Origin: Parvularia atlantis
Lineage: Eukaryota; Opisthokonta; Rotosphaerida
Assembly: GCA_943704415.1 (NCBI GenBank)
Contig: CALSCO010001763.1
Coordinates: 1-34,299 of the forward strand
Length of the DNA: 34,299 nucleotides
Direction: 5' to 3'
Positions 3,380 to 34,299 of this stretch are shown in pieces. The translations under genes were made by a program, and so were the position numbers. Each line of letters begins with the position of its first letter. The first letter of the stretch is position 1. A model generated the notes under the pieces. The model was not told where the DNA came from, made no database searches, and was given only the letters and a program-made list of their open reading frames with translations.

Positions 3380-5849
3380 TCAAAAGACTTGCACGCGGTT
3401 GTTGTCCGTGTCCGCGACGACGACCTTGCCGCTCTCGAGGTGGCGCACGCACCATGGGTGGTTGAACTGGCCGTGCGCGGCGCCCTCGCCGCCCCACTCG
3501 TGCAGGCGCCGCCCGCCGGCCAGGGCCCAGACCGAGATCGTGTGCGTGCGGTACTCGGCCACGAGGAGCGAGCAGCCGTCGTTCGAGAGCGTCACGTCCA
3601 CGGGCTGATTCATGCGCGTGCGGCCCGGTGCGACGCCGCCGATCGTGCGCACGTGGTGGCCGTCGACCGTGCTGTACACCTGCAGCCGCGCGTTGCTCGA
3701 GTCGGCGACAACGATCTCCTTCATCAGCGTCGGGCAGATGCCGCGCGGCCCGTGCATATCCGTGGTCCGGAAGCCCATCTGGCCGATGCGTAGGCGCTCG
3801 CTACCGTCGCATGCGTTAAGGATGACGACCTGAGCGCGCGTACGTGCGTGAGTGCGTCTCGCGATCGGCCGCGCGGCGCACAGCACCTGACACTTGGCGC
3901 CGTCGACGACCGCGATTTCACCCTCCGGCAGCACGGCGATGTTGCGCGCGTCAGGGAAGCGAATGACGTTGTGCACGCGCCCCTCCAGGTCCATTACCTG
4001 CCGCGCGCGCGCCAGGTCAGCCACGGCCCCGTTGCAGCGGCGGACCGCACGCACCACGAGCCGTTCGTTGTCGCGGTCCGCCACCCACAGGCGCCCCTGC
4101 TTGTCAAGCGCCATGCTCCACGGCTTGTTGAGGCGCGTGCCCATGCTGCCGCGCACGTTGGGCGCGCACTCGAGGTCGCGGCCGATCGTGCGCACATGCA
4201 CTCCCTCCTGCGTCACCTCCTGTGCACCCCGCGCGCACGTGCTGCGGTGAGTCACGCATCAACGTCGCCAACAGCGCGCTGCACCTGCAGGCGGTGGTTG
4301 TTGAACTCGAGTATGAGCAGGTTGCCGTTCGGCAGCTCGACGACGCTGATCGGGCTGCAGAACTCGAGCGTGCCGTGGCCGTGCTTGCCAAAGACGGTGC
4401 TCGGGGCGCGCACTTTGCTAAAGTCGCGCGTCTTCGCCTCAGCGCCGCGGCCGGGCTGGCGGTAGATGATGCCGATGTCGCAGATGGGCATGGCAAAAAT
4501 GTCCGACGCGGGCGGCATGCTGAAGCGCAGCGTGTTGCCCACGAGCGGCTCCACGTTTGGCTCGCTCAGCGCGGCCGCGCGCACGTGCCGCGCAACGACG
4601 TCTAGAATGCTGACATACTCGAGCTGCTGCTCGTTCGGCGCCGGCGGCTCATCGTCGCCACGCTCGCGCGCGTCACGCAGGAACAAGCGCGCCATGTCGC
4701 CCTTCTGCTGGAACGACTGCCGGAGCACCTCGAGGCTGTCTGCCTGGTCCTCGAGCATCTTGTGGGCTTCATTTGATAGCTTGTTTATACTTTCCTTCAC
4801 TTCCATCTTACGCGCTTCGAGCTCGGCAATTACGACGTCGTAGGCGCTCGTCACATCCTGACACAGGTCCTGCGCCCGCCCCAGGACGCCGGCTGCAGTG
4901 CGGCGCACGGCCACCACGGCGGTTGCAAGGGCGCGTACGTTGTTGTCGACTAGGGGAATCTCCGTTGCCAGCTGTTCAACGAGCTCCTTGTGCTTCTCGC
5001 TGAGACGAATGACCTGGTGGTCCACATGTGACGAGCTGCTGGCGCAGAGCGAGCACACGAAGACGCGACAGACGGGGCAGTAGCACGACATGTAAAACGC
5101 TTGATGCAGCGGGCACTTTCCGGCGCTCGCACTGCGCACCACGGCCTGCACATGTGCACCATTTGCACACGCGTTGGCACTGACATCGTCCGGCTGCAGA
5201 AACGCATCGACGAAAGAGTCATCAGCATTGGCTTGATCAGCGCCGTCATGAATTTGGCGCCCTTTCTTGTTGTGATCGTGAGGCCCGGCATCAAACGGTG
5301 CACGAAGGCGCTTTAAAGAGGCCGCAGGGGCGAACGGATCGAGCGGCCCAAGGTCGAGGTCGGCCTCCTGCTTGCCGATCACAGACGGCGGCACGTGCGG
5401 CGGCGAGGCGTCGCGCGAGCCCATCGACTCGTGGCAGACGACGCATATCCACTTGCCCGCGTTGGCATTGGCGTCCTTCTTGCGGTCGGCGTAGCACTGC
5501 GCGCGGCGCACGTCGTATCAGCCGCCGCCGCCCAGCCCGGCGCGAGCTGGCAAAGCACACGCACGTCGGGACACAGCGCGTGCAGGCACGGCAACAGCAG
5601 CGCGCCGGTCGCGGCGCTGAACGGCTCGTTGCAGAACGCGCACACGTCGGCCGGCGGCGCCGTGCTGGCCTCGGGCGCGCCGTCGGGCGGCGGCTCGTCG
5701 CGCGGCTGGGTGACGTCAGCCGAACGGATGTCATGGACCGGGTCGCGCTTCACTCTTGCGCCGTTCGCGGCGGTGCTCGGGTCGGGCGCCCAGCCGAGCT
5801 CGACGTCGAGGGAGCGGTGGAGGTGCGTGTCCGGCACCCCAGGCCTCAT
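3380..5849 (-). CDS. TRIM-like RING / B-box / coiled-coil / NHL-repeat protein
   Basis: Likely E3 ubiquitin ligase of TRIM-NHL architecture. Splicing at about 5550-5484 joins PCLHALCPD to CYADRKK and completes a RING: CAFC, then C-x-H-x2-C-x2-C, then CVVC. A B-box follows (CPLH, CPVC, CSLC, HVDH) and a long helical region consistent with a coiled coil (about codons EKHKELVEQL to ARLFLRDARERGD). The C-terminal half has repeated beta-propeller blades with NHL-type motifs: NGNLLILEFNNHRLQ, GRLWVADRDNERLVV, KEIVVADSSNARLQVY and GKVVVADTDNNRVQVF, the last ending the protein as a Velcro strand. Four introns are inferred. The start is uncertain: the ATG at 5849 is the nearest upstream of the RING, but the frame stays open to an ATG at 6077. 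NHL propellers bind RNA or protein partners in animals. The target here is unknown. Confidence 0.85.
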
Positions 5850-6105: not shown

Positions 6106-7230
6106 ATGAGCGCCGCGCCGCCCGACCCGCTCTTCCTGGGCTGCTACCTGCTCACGTCGCTCGCGCCGGGCTGCGCCGGCCGCACCTACATCGGCTTCAC
6201 CGTCAACCCGCCGCGGCGGCTGCGCCAGCACAACGGCGAGATCAAGGGCGGGGCGCACCGAACGCGCCTGCGCCAGCCGTGGTGCGCGGGCGCTATCGCT
6301 GGCGTCGCAGCAGCACGGGGACCCGTCGCGGCTGACGACGGCGCACGCGCGCACAGGGAGATGGTCCTCGTCGTCCACGGCTTTCCCAACAAGCTCGTCG
6401 CGCTACAGTTCGAGTGGGCCTGGACTAACCCGCACCAGTCGCGCCACTTCCGCGCGCGCCTCGCCGGCGGCTGGACCCGGCGCCGCCCGGGCTTCCTCCT
6501 GCGCGACAAGGTTCTCGTCGCGCTCGAGATGCTCTCGCTGCCGTGCTGGGCGCGCCTCGCCCTGCGCCTCACCGTCGTCGCGCCGCACCACTGGCCGCTC
6601 GTCCAGGACCAGTTCACGCGCTTGAGCACGCCCGTGCCGGCGCACATGCCCGTGGCCGTGCTGCCACTCGATCGCATGCCGTACACCTTTGCACGTGGCC
6701 GAGGGACCGCGGCGCGGGCGCACGACGACGCGGACGGCATGAGCGACGGCGAGAGCAACGGCGAGGATGGCGACGCCGAGGACGAGGACGAGGACGACCC
6801 GGACGTGGTCGCGTCCATCCTGCGCTCGCCCGTGGCGGCCGCGATCGCGCCGGGACGCGCGGGCAGCAGCAGCCAGGGCGTGCTCGGGTCGTGCTGCGCC
6901 GTATGCAAGATGCCGCTCAGCGCCGCCGACGCGCTCGACTACGCGCTCACGTGCCCCGGCGCGCCCTGCGAGATGGTCAGCCACCTGACGTGCCTCGCGA
7001 CAGCGTTTCTGGAGACCGACCCGACCACGAGCACGGCGCTGCTGCCGTGCACGGGCACATGCCCGCGCTGCGGCAAGACGCTCACCTGGGGTGACCTCGT
7101 CAAGCAGCTGCAGCTGCGGCGCAAGCGGCGCCTGCTCGAGCTGCGCGGGACGGTGGTGGCGGGCAGCGGCGTCGCCGACGCGGACCGGCGGCGGCTGCGG
7201 TTCGGGGACGACGACGACGACGAGCAGTGA
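6106..7230 (+). CDS. SLX1: Structure-specific endonuclease subunit SLX1
   Basis: Catalytic subunit of the SLX1-SLX4 nuclease that cleaves branched DNA such as Holliday junctions and flaps, in the nucleus. The N-terminal GIY-YIG domain is seen as [27 protein letters not shown] with the catalytic Arg, and [10 protein letters not shown] with the metal-binding Glu. The C-terminal zinc RING/PHD-like domain has [19 protein letters not shown] and [16 protein letters not shown], as in family members. An acidic, Ser/Asp/Glu linker (about 6730-6795) separates them. An intron at 6282-6356 (75 nt) joins RLRQPW to [10 protein letters not shown]. It is a multiple of three and stop-free, so the unspliced frame reads through: 374 codons unspliced, 349 aa spliced. 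The protein ends in a basic helix and an acidic tail (DDDDDEQ). Usually works with SLX4, which is not in the window. Confidence 0.93.
6282..6356 (+). other. In-frame, stop-free intron in SLX1
   Basis: Starts GTGCGC, has GCTGACG near the 3' end and finishes CGCACAG. Removing it restores the conserved [13 protein letters not shown] block of SLX1. Length 75 nt, divisible by three, with no stop codon in the host frame. Confidence 0.85.
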
Positions 7231-26705: not shown

Positions 26706-26773
26706 GGGGTGGCGGATGCTGTTGCCGCGCTGAGGCTGCCGCTGCCGCACTTCCAGTTTGACTGATCAGCTCG

Positions 26774-28064
26774 ATGGACCGCTGCATCGCCTGCCTCGAC
26801 GACGCGACGGCCGCACCGCTGCTCGTGCTGCCGTGCCTGCACCGCACGTGCACCGCCTGCGCCATGGACCTGGCGGCGCGCGGCCGCTGCGTCGAGTGCG
26901 ACGCGCCGGTGCCGCGATCGCCGGCCGCGCTGTCGCCGCTGCGCCCGACTGCGAGCACCGTGCCGCGTGCCGCCGGCCGCCCGCCCGCGCCCGCACGACA
27001 CTCGCCGCTACCGAGGGCGGTGCCGGGGCCGCGCGGGCGCGCGCAGCAGCTGCTGGCGGCGGCCGTGGCGCGTCTGGCCGCGTCGGCAGCGGCATTGGAC
27101 GCGGAAGCGGCGACGGCGGCCGTCGCCCCACCCGTCGCCGTCCCCGACGCGTCGCCGGCGCGCGTCGCGGTGCTGACGGCGCGCGCGGCCGGGCTGGCGA
27201 CGGCGCGGCGCAAGGCGCTGGAGGACGCGGCCGACGCGGTGCGGCTGCAGGCGGCGCGGCTCGCGGCGCTGCGCGACGACGGCGGCGCACCGATGCGCCT
27301 CGTCCGCGCGCGGCTCGACGACGCGTCGGCGGCCGAGGACGTGGCGCGGCGCGCGCGGCCGGCGCCTGTGCGGCTCGCGGTGCTGCGGCCGGGCGCCGTG
27401 TCGGCGACGTGGGCGGCCGCGCTGCCCGATGCGGCGCGCGGCTACGTCGGCGGGCTGTGGCGCGACTACGACGCGGTGGCGCGGCGGCTGCTGTCGTCGG
27501 ACGTGGCGAGCGACGCCGAGGAAGGCGACGACGAAGGCGACGAGGACGAGAGCAGCACGGACGACGACGACGACGACGATCAGCAGCAGCAGCAGCAGCA
27601 GCAGCTGCTGCTGCTGCGCTTCCCGTGCGGCGCGTGCGCCACGGCCGACGGGCGCCGCGTCGTCGTCGCCGACTCGCTCAACCGGCGCCTCGTCGTGCTG
27701 GACGCGCGCGGGCGCACGCGCGGCACCGTCGACACCGGCGGCCTGCGCCCCTTCGCCGTCGCCGTCGACCCGCGCTCGGGCCACGTCGCCTTCACCTCGG
27801 TCGACGCCCTCGCCGTGCTCTTCGTCGCCCTCCCGTCCGGCCTGGCGCAAGGGCCGGCGCGTGCTGGGCGGCGGCGTGCCGTCTTCTTTGATGTGCGCGA
27901 CGACGACGAGGACGACGAGGACGACGACGAGGACGACGAGGACGACGACGAGGACGCGGACGAGGGCCAAGACGACGAGGGCAGCGTGTACGAGGACGCG
28001 CCCGAGCAGCTCGAGGACGACGACAACGACAACGACGATGGCAATCAGGACGATCAAGACGACC

Positions 28065-28119
<55 letters not shown>

Positions 28120-28845
28120 CCAAGCCAATCGGGACCACGACGACGAGGAGGGCGAGCAGCCGCCGATCACCCGCCGCGTCGACTGCGCGTCCGACAACCG
28201 CGGCCTCGCCTTCGCGCGCGACGGCAGTGCCATTGTGGCGCGCGCGGTCGAGAAGGACCACTTTGTGACGCGCCTCGCCCTCGCACCGGGCCCGCACGGC
28301 GCCGCCGTCGAGCGCTGGACGAGCCACGGTGCCGGCTTTGACCTGCCGCTGGGCGTGGCCGTGCTGCAAAACCCGATCGACGCCGCGCGCGACCCGGACG
28401 CCGGCACCGTCGCCGTCTGCGACGCGCGCACCGACCGCGTTCAGCTGCTGGCCCTGGCCGACGGCGCGCTGCTGCGGCTGCTCGGCGCGGGGCTGCTGCG
28501 CGTGCGTCCCGCGAAGTTCTCGCTGATCGCTCGCTGATCGGCTCGGACGCGCGCAGACGCCCAACCACTGCGCCGCCACGCCCGACGGCCACCTCGTCGT
28601 GACCGAGGCGCACACCCACGAGGGTGACCGCGTCTCCGTCTGGGACGTCGCCACCGGCGAGCTCGTCTGGGCCCTCGGCGTCACCGGCGTCCTCCCCGGC
28701 CAGTTCCGCTTCCCGCGCGGTGCGCCGTCACCCGCCCTTCTGCCCGCCATGACTGGTGCTCACGACGCGCGCAGGCGTCGCCGTCCTCAACAGCGGCCGC
28801 ATCGCCGTCGTCGAGAGCGGCAACTGGCGCGTCCAGTTCCTGTGA
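26774..28845 (+). CDS. RING-finger / beta-propeller protein with acidic and polyglutamine inserts
   Basis: Probable E3 ubiquitin ligase. The RING is at the extreme N terminus: CIACLDD, LPCLHRTCTACA, CVECDAPVP. A long Ala/Arg-rich helical region follows. Propeller-like strands then appear (GRRVVVADSLNRRLVVLDAR; AVDPRSGHVAFTSVDALAV), interrupted by an Asp/Glu-rich insert (about 27898-28060) and a pure glutamine tract. Later strands include GTVAVCDARTDRVQLLAL and, after an intron at about 28500-28550, HLVVTEAHTHEGDRVSVWDV and SGRIAVVESGNWRVQFL at the stop, an NHL-like closing strand. The first exon is about 1.7 kb without an intron, unlike neighbouring genes. The architecture resembles the RING/B-box/NHL gene at 3380-5849 but lacks a B-box. 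Polarity is supported by the family match. Minus-strand frames over the repeats are shadows. Confidence 0.8.
27581..27616 (+). repeat. (CAG)8 directly followed by (CTG)4: hairpin-forming repeat
   Basis: Within the RING/propeller coding sequence, an in-frame Gln run is immediately followed by Leu codons that are its reverse complement, so either strand can fold into a stem. It encodes Q8-L4. Confidence 0.85.
28066..28119 (+). repeat. Pure (CAG)18 repeat encoding polyglutamine
   Basis: Eighteen uninterrupted CAG codons follow an Asp/Asn-rich stretch and end at CACCAA. A pure tract of one codon suggests recent expansion and likely length variation between strains. Confidence 0.92.
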
Positions 28846-32476: not shown

Positions 32477-33444
32477 TCATGCCCAGCCACCCGCAAACGC
32501 CAGCACCTGACCCGTGATAAAGTCCGACTCGCGCGAGGCCAGGAAGATGACATACTGCGCGGCCTCGGCGGGCGCGGCCAGGCGGCGCAGCGGGATCGCG
32601 GCTGTGATTTTGGCGCGGCGTGCCGGGTCGACCAGCACCGCCTCCGAGAAGTACGACGGCGACTCGACGTAGTTGGCCGCGATCGCGTTGCTCGTCACGC
32701 CCAGCGGCGCCAGCTCCTTGGCCAGCGAAAGCGCCAGCGCGTTGATCGCGCCGCGCGCCGTCACGTACGGCGCGTAGTTGGGCAGCCCTGCACCCGTCGC
32801 ACGTCAACCACGTCCATCTTTCCCGCCCACGAGAGCACACACGCACCTCTCAGCGGCGCGGCCGACGACAGGAACAGCAGCTTGCAGCCGGCCGCGCCAC
32901 CCGGCTGCGCCTTAATCTGGCGCACGACCTGGCCCGCAAGCATGAACGGGTCAACGGTGAGCGTCCGCAGCGTCGCCAGCAGCAGCTGCTCGTCGCAGGC
33001 ATCGATGGGCGCGCGCGTGGCCGGGAAGACGTCGTTGCTGACGAGCACGTCGATGCGCCCGTGCGTCCGCGCCACATCCTCCACGAGCCCTATTGCGGCG
33101 TGCTCAGCGCCATCACGCGGCGGATCGCCGGCCGCGCACCGTCCAGCAGCGGCCGCGCCGAGACGTGCAGCCCGGGGAACCGTGCCCCAAAGCGATCGCG
33201 TGCCGCCGCGTCGTCCACGAACGTGGGGTCGTGCGCCGTCACGCGCGCGCCCTCGCGCAGCAGCGCATCCACAGCCGGCGTGCCGAGAAAGCCCTGCGCG
33301 CCACGCATCGCACGCGCGATCAGCGCACGCACCGATCAGTGCACACAGACGCACGAGCACGTTGGTCACAAGCACGACGCGGCCCGCCAGCCGCCCCGCC
33401 ACCGCGACTTGCGCCGCGACACTGCCGATCCGCCCCGCCGCCAT
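32477..33444 (-). CDS. Short-chain dehydrogenase-fold protein of halohydrin dehalogenase type
   Basis: Rossmann-fold SDR relative, about 267 aa in four exons. It lacks the normal SDR hallmarks and instead shows both motifs used to define halohydrin dehalogenases. First, T-x4-F-x-G in place of the NAD-binding glycine motif (VVLVTNVLGFLG). Second, S-x12-Y-x3-R as the catalytic triad (LFLSSAAPLRGLPNYAPYVT, then A-R), where ordinary SDRs have Y-x3-K. Tyr is encoded at 32765-32767 and Arg at 32753-32755. GRIDVLVSNDVFPA, LAKELAPLGVTSNAIAANY and SDFITGQVLAFAGGWA also resemble bacterial HheC. Such enzymes reversibly convert vicinal haloalcohols to epoxides and halide. Three GT-AG introns with host-type GTGCG donors show it is resident. 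The first 22 residues (MAAGRIGSVAAQVAVAGRLA) lack acidic residues and could be a mitochondrial targeting peptide. An in-frame ATG lies at 33486. Activity is inferred from motifs only. Confidence 0.82.
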
Positions 33445-33548
33445 GCTGCACTCAACTTGTCTGATAAACATACGGGACCCGCTCATCGCTCACTCGCTCA
33501 AAGGCGGTCATGCAACAGCGAAAGGGGTATAGGTAAAGCAAGCGCGAG

Positions 33549-33648
33549 ACACGGACGAAAGCGAAAGACACGGTCCGAACGGAACAGCGAGCGGGTACAT
33601 AGAAAGGGCGAGAAACGGACGAAAGCGAAAGACACGGTCAGAACGGAA
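33549..33648 (+). repeat. Two copies of a ~35-bp direct repeat, 64 bp apart
   Basis: Copies at about 33549-33585 and 33612-33648 share ACGGACGAAAGCGAAAGACA and continue with CGGTC(C/A)GAACGGAAC. The right-hand copy overlaps the last codons and stop of the stalked membrane protein gene (minus strand), so the repeat appears to be a duplication of that gene's 3' end and flank. Confidence 0.88.
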
Positions 33649-34299
33649 CTTCCTTCTCGTTGTTCGCGACGGTGGACGACGGGTCGCTCGGGCCGCCGAG
33701 CTGCCGGCACCAACAGTTAGTCAAAGCGACGACCTGGCACCCACGACCGACACACCTCCATGAGCTCGGTGAGACGCTGGTCGGCGTCGAGCGAGCGCCG
33801 CGATGCGCCCACGTTGAACGTGCCGGCGAAGATCGACGAGCGCGAGCGCATCGGCTCCGCATCATCATCGCCTGGTCGCACGCACGCCGTGTAAGTGCAC
33901 GTCCGCTCGCACGCGCAAGCAGCCACACACACCCTTGCCCTCCTTGCGGTTGCGTGCCCACATGAACGCCACAATGATCGCCAGAATCACCACCACGCCC
34001 AGAACGACGCCCACCGTCACGCCGATGATGACCTGAGCGGCATGCCGTCAGCACACCTTTGCGCAGCAGCACAGGCGAGCGACGCGCACCGGGTTGTTGG
34101 ACTGCTCCGCCGAGCCAGTTGGCGTGCCTGTCGGAGCCTCGGTCGTTGGGGCGTTGGTCGGACTGTTGGTCGGGCCGTTGGTTGGGTTGGAAGTCGGGCC
34201 GCTGGTTGGGCCGTTGGTTGGGTTGGAAGTCGGGCCAGACGAGGGGCCGCTCGACGGGCCGCTGGTAGGGCCAGACGAAGGGCCGCTGCTCGGGCCGCT
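33638..34299 (-). CDS. Partial gene, 3' end: single-pass membrane protein with Pro/Ser/Thr stalk
   Basis: The 5' part lies beyond the right edge. The visible part starts with a long run of four-residue repeats of the form SGPS, SGPT, SNPT and NGPT (34299 to about 34140), then EAPTGTPTGSAEQSNNP. After an intron (about 34095-34037) comes one strong membrane segment, VIIGVTVGVVLGVVVILAII, with a positive stop-transfer WARNRKEGK. The cytoplasmic tail has RSRSSIFAGTFNVGASRRSL, DADQRLTELMELGG and ends NEKEVPF. Two further introns (about 33949-33890 and 33766-33709) are inferred. The proline-rich repeat looks like an extended, probably O-glycosylated stalk lifting an N-terminal extracellular domain off the surface, as in adhesion or sensing proteins. 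The extracellular domain is not in view. Confidence 0.75.
   Translation of the reverse strand, partial: RPEQRPFVWPYQRPVERPLVWPDFQPNQRPNQRPDFQPNQRPDQQSDQRPNDRGSDRHANWLGGAVQQPGARRSPVLLRKGVLTACRSGHHRRDGGRRSGRGGDSGDHCGVHVGTQPQGGQGCVWLLARASGRALTRRACDQAMMMRSRCARARRSSPARSTWAHRGARSTPTSVSPSSWRCVGRGCQVVALTNCWCRQLGGPSDPSSTVANNEKEVPF

Follow-up and report, generated by a model that had tools for sequence, protein, structure and literature searches.

Does a eukaryotic nuclear genome encode a halohydrin dehalogenase (HHDH) and, if so, where did the gene come from? The available text of two HHDH papers (PMC4989007, PMC11976700) describes bacterial enzymes. A preliminary description of a contig from Parvularia atlantis had nevertheless proposed an HHDH-like gene with three introns, all with GTGCG donors, and suggested that it was acquired from bacteria. 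We analysed the whole stretch of 34,299 nucleotides (the window) in which this gene lies. In the reading that we consider quite likely, the locus is a nuclear eukaryotic HHDH gene that was gained horizontally from an alphaproteobacterium, has since become intron-bearing and would encode an enzyme with an HheC-like mechanism. The kind of enzyme is already known; its eukaryotic host is unexpected.

Gene model and splicing

Joining four minus-strand exons gave 798 nt with a frame open up to a TGA stop, encoding a protein of 265 amino acids (hereafter the query). Exon 1 of the rebuilt model (33355 to 33444) encodes residues 1 to 30, with the protein start and the first half of motif 1 (TNVL). Intron 1 (33294 to 33354; 61 nt, phase 0, GTGCG...CAG) splits this motif, and exon 2 (33140 to 33293) runs from its second half, GFLG, to PLLD. 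Intron 2 (33090 to 33139; 50 nt, phase 1, GTGCG...TAG) is followed by exon 3 (32847 to 33089), which encodes the SNDVF segment and the predicted catalytic Ser157 (codon 32865-32863). Intron 3 (32788 to 32846; 59 nt, phase 1, GTGCG...CAG) splits motif 2. Exon 4 (32477 to 32787) encodes Tyr170 (32767-32765), Arg174 (32755-32753) and, according to the alignment, an NYV equivalent of the halide loop and the TGQV...AGGWA end before the stop codon. All three introns were placed by their splice signature, and exons 2 to 4 by the gene model together with tblastn. Because introns 1 and 3 each cut one motif, both motifs are present only once the gene is spliced.

The exon limits were compared with homology on raw DNA by running tblastn with 13 proteins against the unspliced window, without use of the splice sites. 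Seven queries were from the HHDH family (six loci and the PDB sequence 6a41); the remaining six were HheC, HheA, HheD2 and three SDRs. With the HHDH-family queries, the exon-4 piece begins at 32788 in six of seven cases (predicted 32787), at up to 64% identity, the exon-3 piece stops at 32845 in all seven (predicted 32847), and the exon-2 piece begins at 33290-33293 in six (predicted 33293). The limits of intron 2 are less sharp: exon-2 pieces end scattered over 33168-33105 (predicted 33140), and exon-3 pieces begin at 33159-33060 (predicted 33089), some of them overrunning the predicted intron. No piece of its own was obtained from these queries for the 30-residue exon 1, because it is too short. 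With HheC, HheA, HheD2 and the SDRs, each query matched in one or two pieces, whose ends were looser; HheD2 and FabG gave matches that cross intron 3. By this measure, predicted introns 1 and 3 agree with the bacterial homologues, and intron 2 does so less sharply.

In our protein alignment (alignment A2), all three exon junctions are gap-free against the HHDHs shown; close to the second junction, FabG carries an insertion. A different first splice site that would destroy the spacing of motif 1 had been named as a weak point of the gene model. Between 33354 and the intron acceptor (33294), the other GTGCG and GTGTG donors listed would lose the frame with that acceptor and were rejected. The proposal of a three-intron HHDH-like gene with GTGCG donors is thus borne out by the rebuilt exons and the tblastn pieces.

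Around the start codon (33444), position -3 is A and position +4 is G; further in-frame ATGs lie upstream at 33471 and 33486. The N terminus had been described as Arg-rich and acid-free and as a possible mitochondrial targeting signal. The first 18 residues indeed hold no acidic residue, with three Arg or fewer. Their targeting role is unconvincing in view of the two upstream ATGs and a modest helical moment, whose N-terminal maximum of about 0.41 ranks at the 92nd percentile for this protein. Mitochondrial targeting of the putative N terminus is weakly supported.

Family membership and bacterial relatives

HHDHs are part of the SDR superfamily (PMC4989007). Passages of two papers (PMC4989007, PMC11976700) distinguish HHDHs by the fingerprints T-X4-F/Y-X-G and S-X12-Y-X3-R, and SDRs by T-G/A-X3-G/A-X-G and S-X10-14-Y-X3-K. 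Both HHDH signatures, as originally claimed, occur in the spliced protein, as T27-N-V-L-G-F32-L-G34 and S157-x12-Y170-x3-R174. The classical SDR patterns are absent, the TGxxxGxG site reading TNVLGFLG and the YxxxK site YVTAR. The HheC-like segments SND(V/I)F and TGQV...AGG, also part of the preliminary description, were recovered in alignment A2.

The top match in the PDB was 6a41, named as a dehalogenase (187.6 bits, phmmer E 2.9e-54, 45% identity over the whole length). The best 14 distinct PDB sequences were HHDHs or 6a41, and the first ordinary SDR scored 73.4 bits; 7b73 and 8xxb, which carry SDR names in the sequence search, are titled HheD2 and HheD8 in the structure match list. G-type HHDH structures (8hqp, 8h8y and 7wkq; 61-64 bits) rank amid ordinary SDRs, and the PDB ranking therefore separates nearer HHDHs only. 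Matches to NCBIfam comprised 165 generic SDR families, and none of the best 25 exceeds its cut-off. Identity is about 41-54% to alphaproteobacterial HHDHs and 29-36% to eight SDRs, with distant HHDH types at 33-40%, overlapping the SDR range.

Trees of 39 and 58 rows, each with eight SDRs, separate HHDHs from SDRs with support of 100/100 and place the query with the HHDHs. This placement holds when the motif columns are removed. Neither a position inside a canonical SDR clade nor an intact glycine motif, which had been named as evidence that would speak against an HHDH, was found. At the sequence level, the assignment of the query as a predicted HHDH and not an SDR is firm.

We searched bacterial and archaeal genomes with a query-6a41 alignment and retained 80 of the 88 relatives that it yielded. 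Nearly all of these (77/80) are 41-57% identical to the query in the best segment, under titles that are alphaproteobacterial or unspecifically proteobacterial, with one Marinimicrobia; Enhydrobacter and Vineibacter, which are among them, are Alphaproteobacteria. The other three, at 32% identity, are Acidimicrobiales, Acidimicrobiaceae and Pseudomonadales records. Both HHDH motifs are present in 75 of the 80 relatives, one of the 75 fitting the SDR motif-1 pattern as well. Motif 2 occurs in all 80, the YxxxK form in none. The five relatives without motif 1 are a truncated sequence (L077), three with S for T and one with W for F. Three alphaproteobacterial proteins (L063, L073 and L074) thus read SN-x-x-K-F-x-G, with Ser in place of the motif-1 Thr, and L050 has Trp in place of Phe. 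Five of 33 further loci lack motif 1, and one lacks motif 2.

HHDH-like matches to the query in seven bacterial genomes scored 156-220 bits, and other matches in them 82 bits or less. Around the genome of L072, a relative titled Geminicoccaceae, homologues at E<=1e-30 were found in 3 of 31 genomes of its family, in at least 42 of 385 genomes from its class and in at least 2 of 398 from its phylum, both of the latter already in the class sample; the centre genome is counted each time, and the two large scans give lower bounds because six candidates were scored per genome. Tandem pairs of HHDH-like genes, each gene 36-37% identical to the query, were seen in three small genomes of 1.6-2.3 Mb (G133:C6, G241:C1 and G330:C32). 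Two scans of viral contigs returned no relative. Eight phage records matched, none spanning 80% of the query; the five phage matches listed have ~29-31% identity, two being annotated as 3-hydroxybutyrate dehydrogenase and three unannotated. Among 855 matching plasmid records, the best holds an HheA-type enzyme with 34% identity.

Host DNA around the gene

With intron-like spacing, the window holds 74 copies of the signature GTGCG..CTGA[CTG]..YAG; the expectation from 100 dinucleotide shuffles is 27.0 +/- 5.8, and none of the shuffles reaches 74. GTACG is likewise in about twofold excess (88 versus 42.9 expected). In addition to the spliced protein, 19 ORFs of the window were scanned against Pfam. 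SLX1_C with GIY-YIG, PHO4, Ada3 and B-box with NHL scored above the cut-off, and RING/NHL, HisKA and others below it. Eleven of the 19 ORFs had no Pfam match even at E 0.1, none was found for six ORFs between 29.4 and 32.2 kb, and the window gave zero Rfam matches. The SLX1 C-terminal and Ada3 domains are eukaryotic families. Two frames resemble the TRIM type, one with RING/NHL on the plus strand (26762-28537, below the Pfam cut-off) and one with B-box/NHL on the minus strand (4252-5517).

Taking out GTGCG introns raised the Pfam scores of two of these genes, from 88.0 to 136.1 bits for PHO4 (intron 11078-11023) and from 38.8 to 54.0 bits for the GIY-YIG domain of SLX1 (intron 6282-6356). PHO4 and SLX1 are clean controls for GTGCG introns. 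Splicing also raised the score of the Ada3 gene, ~3 kb from the HHDH gene, from 31.4 to 67.9 bits. Ada3 was dropped as a GTGCG control since the gain comes mainly from a GTGTG donor; of the three GTGCG introns in this gene, two have lengths divisible by three and so offer no test of the frame.

The HHDH exons have a GC content of 0.744/0.519/0.895 at codon positions 1/2/3, and the SLX1 ORF of 0.73/0.553/0.929. Third-position GC is 0.93 in one Ada3 exon and lower in the HisKA ORF (0.698) and a PHO4 piece (0.796, frame unverified). The gene is flanked on one side by Ada3 and on the other by a reading frame that contains an intron-like stretch at 34089-34033, which agrees with the earlier statement that it sits between host genes. 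The latter frame is a piece of an upstream gene on the minus strand (33638-34297), with Ser/Gly/Pro-rich repeats and, judged by eye, a likely membrane segment; its intron-like stretch is of the GTGCG type. Taken together, the introns of the window, the PHO4 and SLX1 controls and the codon GC show the HHDH gene at home in a eukaryotic genome. The related claim, that the gene shares its donors with its neighbours and is not contamination, held up against both the motif count and the score gains.

Origin and predicted activity

In the 39-row tree, the query pairs with L072 (83/72). With support of 96/96, the 58-row tree groups it with L072, L089 and L091, which all come from one bacterial family. 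Support for this group is 97/93 without the SDRs and other HHDH types, and 92/72 with the motif columns removed. The genome of L072 encodes another HHDH, L092, which the 58-row tree places with HheA and HheC. The trees took in HHDH types A, B, C and D and left out E, F and G. In the 58-row tree the query lies outside the rows of subtypes A/C (94/93 with L092) and B/D (100/100) and outside the 6A41 clade proper; HheA and HheC sit among alphaproteobacterial rows. The end branch of the query is long (0.91-1.14), and omitting L072, L089 and L091 shifts it to a weakly supported place (42-58).

A position of the query as the sister of every bacterial HHDH in the tree was not rejected by an AU test. 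Two tests of this one split returned p 0.48, with a likelihood 1.39 lower, and p 0.76, with a likelihood 8.33 higher than that of the free tree. Alphaproteobacterial kinship is well supported by the trees. Because the AU test allows deeper branching, a Geminicoccaceae-like donor is no more than our best guess.

The best reading of the locus is acquisition from bacteria followed by intron gain, the source being alphaproteobacterial and perhaps Geminicoccaceae-like. The preliminary description had come to the same sequence of events, and the alphaproteobacterial kin in the trees support it, with deeper branching allowed. The nuclear gene of a G+C-rich eukaryote would thus encode an HHDH from among the alphaproteobacterial HHDHs, a set that includes PDB 6A41. 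We infer that the transfer ran from an alphaproteobacterium to the eukaryote and that three host-type introns were acquired afterwards.

In the proposed mechanism, Ser157 would hold a vicinal haloalcohol, and Tyr170, its pKa lowered by Arg174, would accept the hydroxyl proton. The substrate oxygen would then displace the neighbouring halide, giving an epoxide, and the halide would exit to a pocket with a lining formed by Phe32 and the loop N201-Y202-V203, at the position that NAD(P) has in an ordinary SDR. The serine of HHDHs holds the substrate. According to the passages available (PMC4989007, PMC11976700), the tyrosine accepts the proton of the substrate hydroxyl while the arginine lowers its pKa, and the halide pocket occupies the nicotinamide site and is lined by the aromatic residue of motif 1. 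Tyr170, Arg174, Ser157 and Phe32 are kept in the query, and N201-Y202-V203 aligns with HheC N176-Y177-L178. A structure was modelled for the bacterial relative L072 alone (AlphaFold, mean pLDDT 85.8); its best PDB match is 6a41, and the first 19 of the 50 PDB matches listed are 6a41 and HHDHs.

Motifs and family point to dehalogenation and epoxide opening as the probable activities of the query. In the portion of PMC4989007 at hand, a representative selection of 19 HHDHs chosen by motif was confirmed active. The same portion names only two known HHDH genes whose operon also holds an epoxide hydrolase; it regards other physiological functions as possible. In the eukaryote, the substrates may be haloalcohols or epoxides from the environment, or else some epoxide of its own.

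The bacterial neighbourhoods of six loci were scanned as well, 20 queries covering 13 different neighbour genes. None of the 13 is an epoxide hydrolase, and with no common pathway among them the neighbourhood was discarded as a guide to function. A peptide/nickel-type ABC transporter follows the HHDH gene in Reyranella massiliensis (L027), and the neighbours elsewhere are an FdhF/YdeP-type oxidoreductase (L062), a divergent acyl-CoA dehydrogenase (L075), and methyltransferase-like and oxidoreductase-like genes (L001). In L072 (1217-4717), the start of the HHDH frame lies at most 15 nt from the end of serA, the phosphoglycerate dehydrogenase gene, which is itself preceded by serC, and a serA-type gene lies equally close before the HHDH gene in L091 (1-2214); this link of HHDH to serine synthesis is unexplained. 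In contrast, the HheA gene of a Microbacterium plasmid has an epoxide hydrolase gene on one side and a glycerol kinase gene on the other.

The alternative that deserves most attention, although we consider it unlikely, is an HHDH-family protein with lost or altered activity, which might act as a binding protein or turn over a different epoxide or alcohol. The long end branch would fit this, as would a four-residue insertion (A147-C150), Ala200 at the position of HheC Pro175, and bacterial neighbourhoods that give no pointer to haloalcohols (serC-serA in L072, no epoxide hydrolase among 13 genes). Against it stand the intact frame of 265 residues, the retention of the catalytic residues and both motifs, and the activity that others found in motif-selected relatives (PMC4989007, as far as its available text goes). 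Inheritance with the alphaproteobacterial ancestor of mitochondria, without later transfer, would explain the alphaproteobacterial affinity and the deep branching allowed by the AU test. It would require loss in nearly all eukaryotes, and the best trees tie the query to one bacterial family; we regard it as very improbable.

Still less credence is due to a eukaryotic SDR that converged on the HHDH motifs. HHDHs do lie within the SDR superfamily (PMC4989007), and the AU test allows branching just outside the sampled bacterial HHDHs, but the query is 43-54% identical to alphaproteobacterial HHDHs as against 29-36% to eight SDRs (distant HHDH types 33-40%), and its place on the HHDH side survives removal of the motif columns. 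Least probable of all is bacterial contamination or a chimaeric assembly. The closest relatives found are bacterial, but three spliceosomal-type introns refute this origin, and the codon composition resembles that of the SLX1 ORF. Contamination is excluded because the intron signature recurs throughout the window and the host genes PHO4 and SLX1 confirm it.

A horizontally acquired alphaproteobacterial HHDH with host introns remains the preferred reading. The stronger version of it, namely the first eukaryotic HHDH within the literature covered, working, cofactor-free, derived from a Geminicoccaceae-like alphaproteobacterium, furnished with three host introns, kept under selection and possibly organellar, has in our judgement slightly less than an even chance of being right as a whole. 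Among the titles listed for HHDHs in eukaryotes, fungi, chytrids, algae or protists in openly licensed literature, none reports a eukaryotic HHDH. An intron-bearing eukaryotic copy suggests that HHDHs are useful beyond pollutant-degrading bacteria, and the query offers a distant new sequence for biocatalysis. The likely source would be a broad alphaproteobacterial group, with homologues in at least 42 of the 385 genomes sampled from one class.

Comparison with known enzymes

The query shares the Pfam family adh_short_C2 with classical SDRs such as FabG. It differs from them in having TNVLGFLG, SNDVF and YxxxR in place of TGxxxGxG, NNAG and YxxxK. HheA (4Z9F), HheB (4ZD6), HheD2 (7B73) and HheD8 (8XXB) share the HHDH motifs with the query and fall with it on one side when the trees separate HHDHs from SDRs. 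An enantioselective HHDH from an Alphaproteobacterium has been characterised (Xue et al. 2019, Catal. Lett., as cited in the accessible part of PMC11536340).

The resemblance to HheC of Agrobacterium radiobacter (1PWX) covers the Ser-Tyr-Arg triad, TNV-x2-F-x-G, VLVSND(V/I)F, NY(V/L) and TGQV...AGG. Identity to HheC is nevertheless 32%, and the query lacks both its longer halide loop and the C-terminal extension with Trp249 described in the available text of PMC4989007. At the position of HheC Pro175, the query has Ala200 and 6a41 has Ser.

Closer likeness is seen to 6A41 and its clade (Reyranella, Rhodospirillales), which have both motifs, SSAAPLRG-x2-NYAPYV-x-AR, NYVE-x-P-x-YF and the AGGWA end. 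Compared with 6A41, the query has an N-terminal extension of ~18 residues, the four-residue insertion and the introns, and motif 1 reads GFLG instead of KFAG. The form T-[NH]-V-x-G-F-[LV]-G of motif 1 is common to the query and L072, L089 and L091. These three are bacterial, are each encoded in a single open frame and have ~50% identity to the query.
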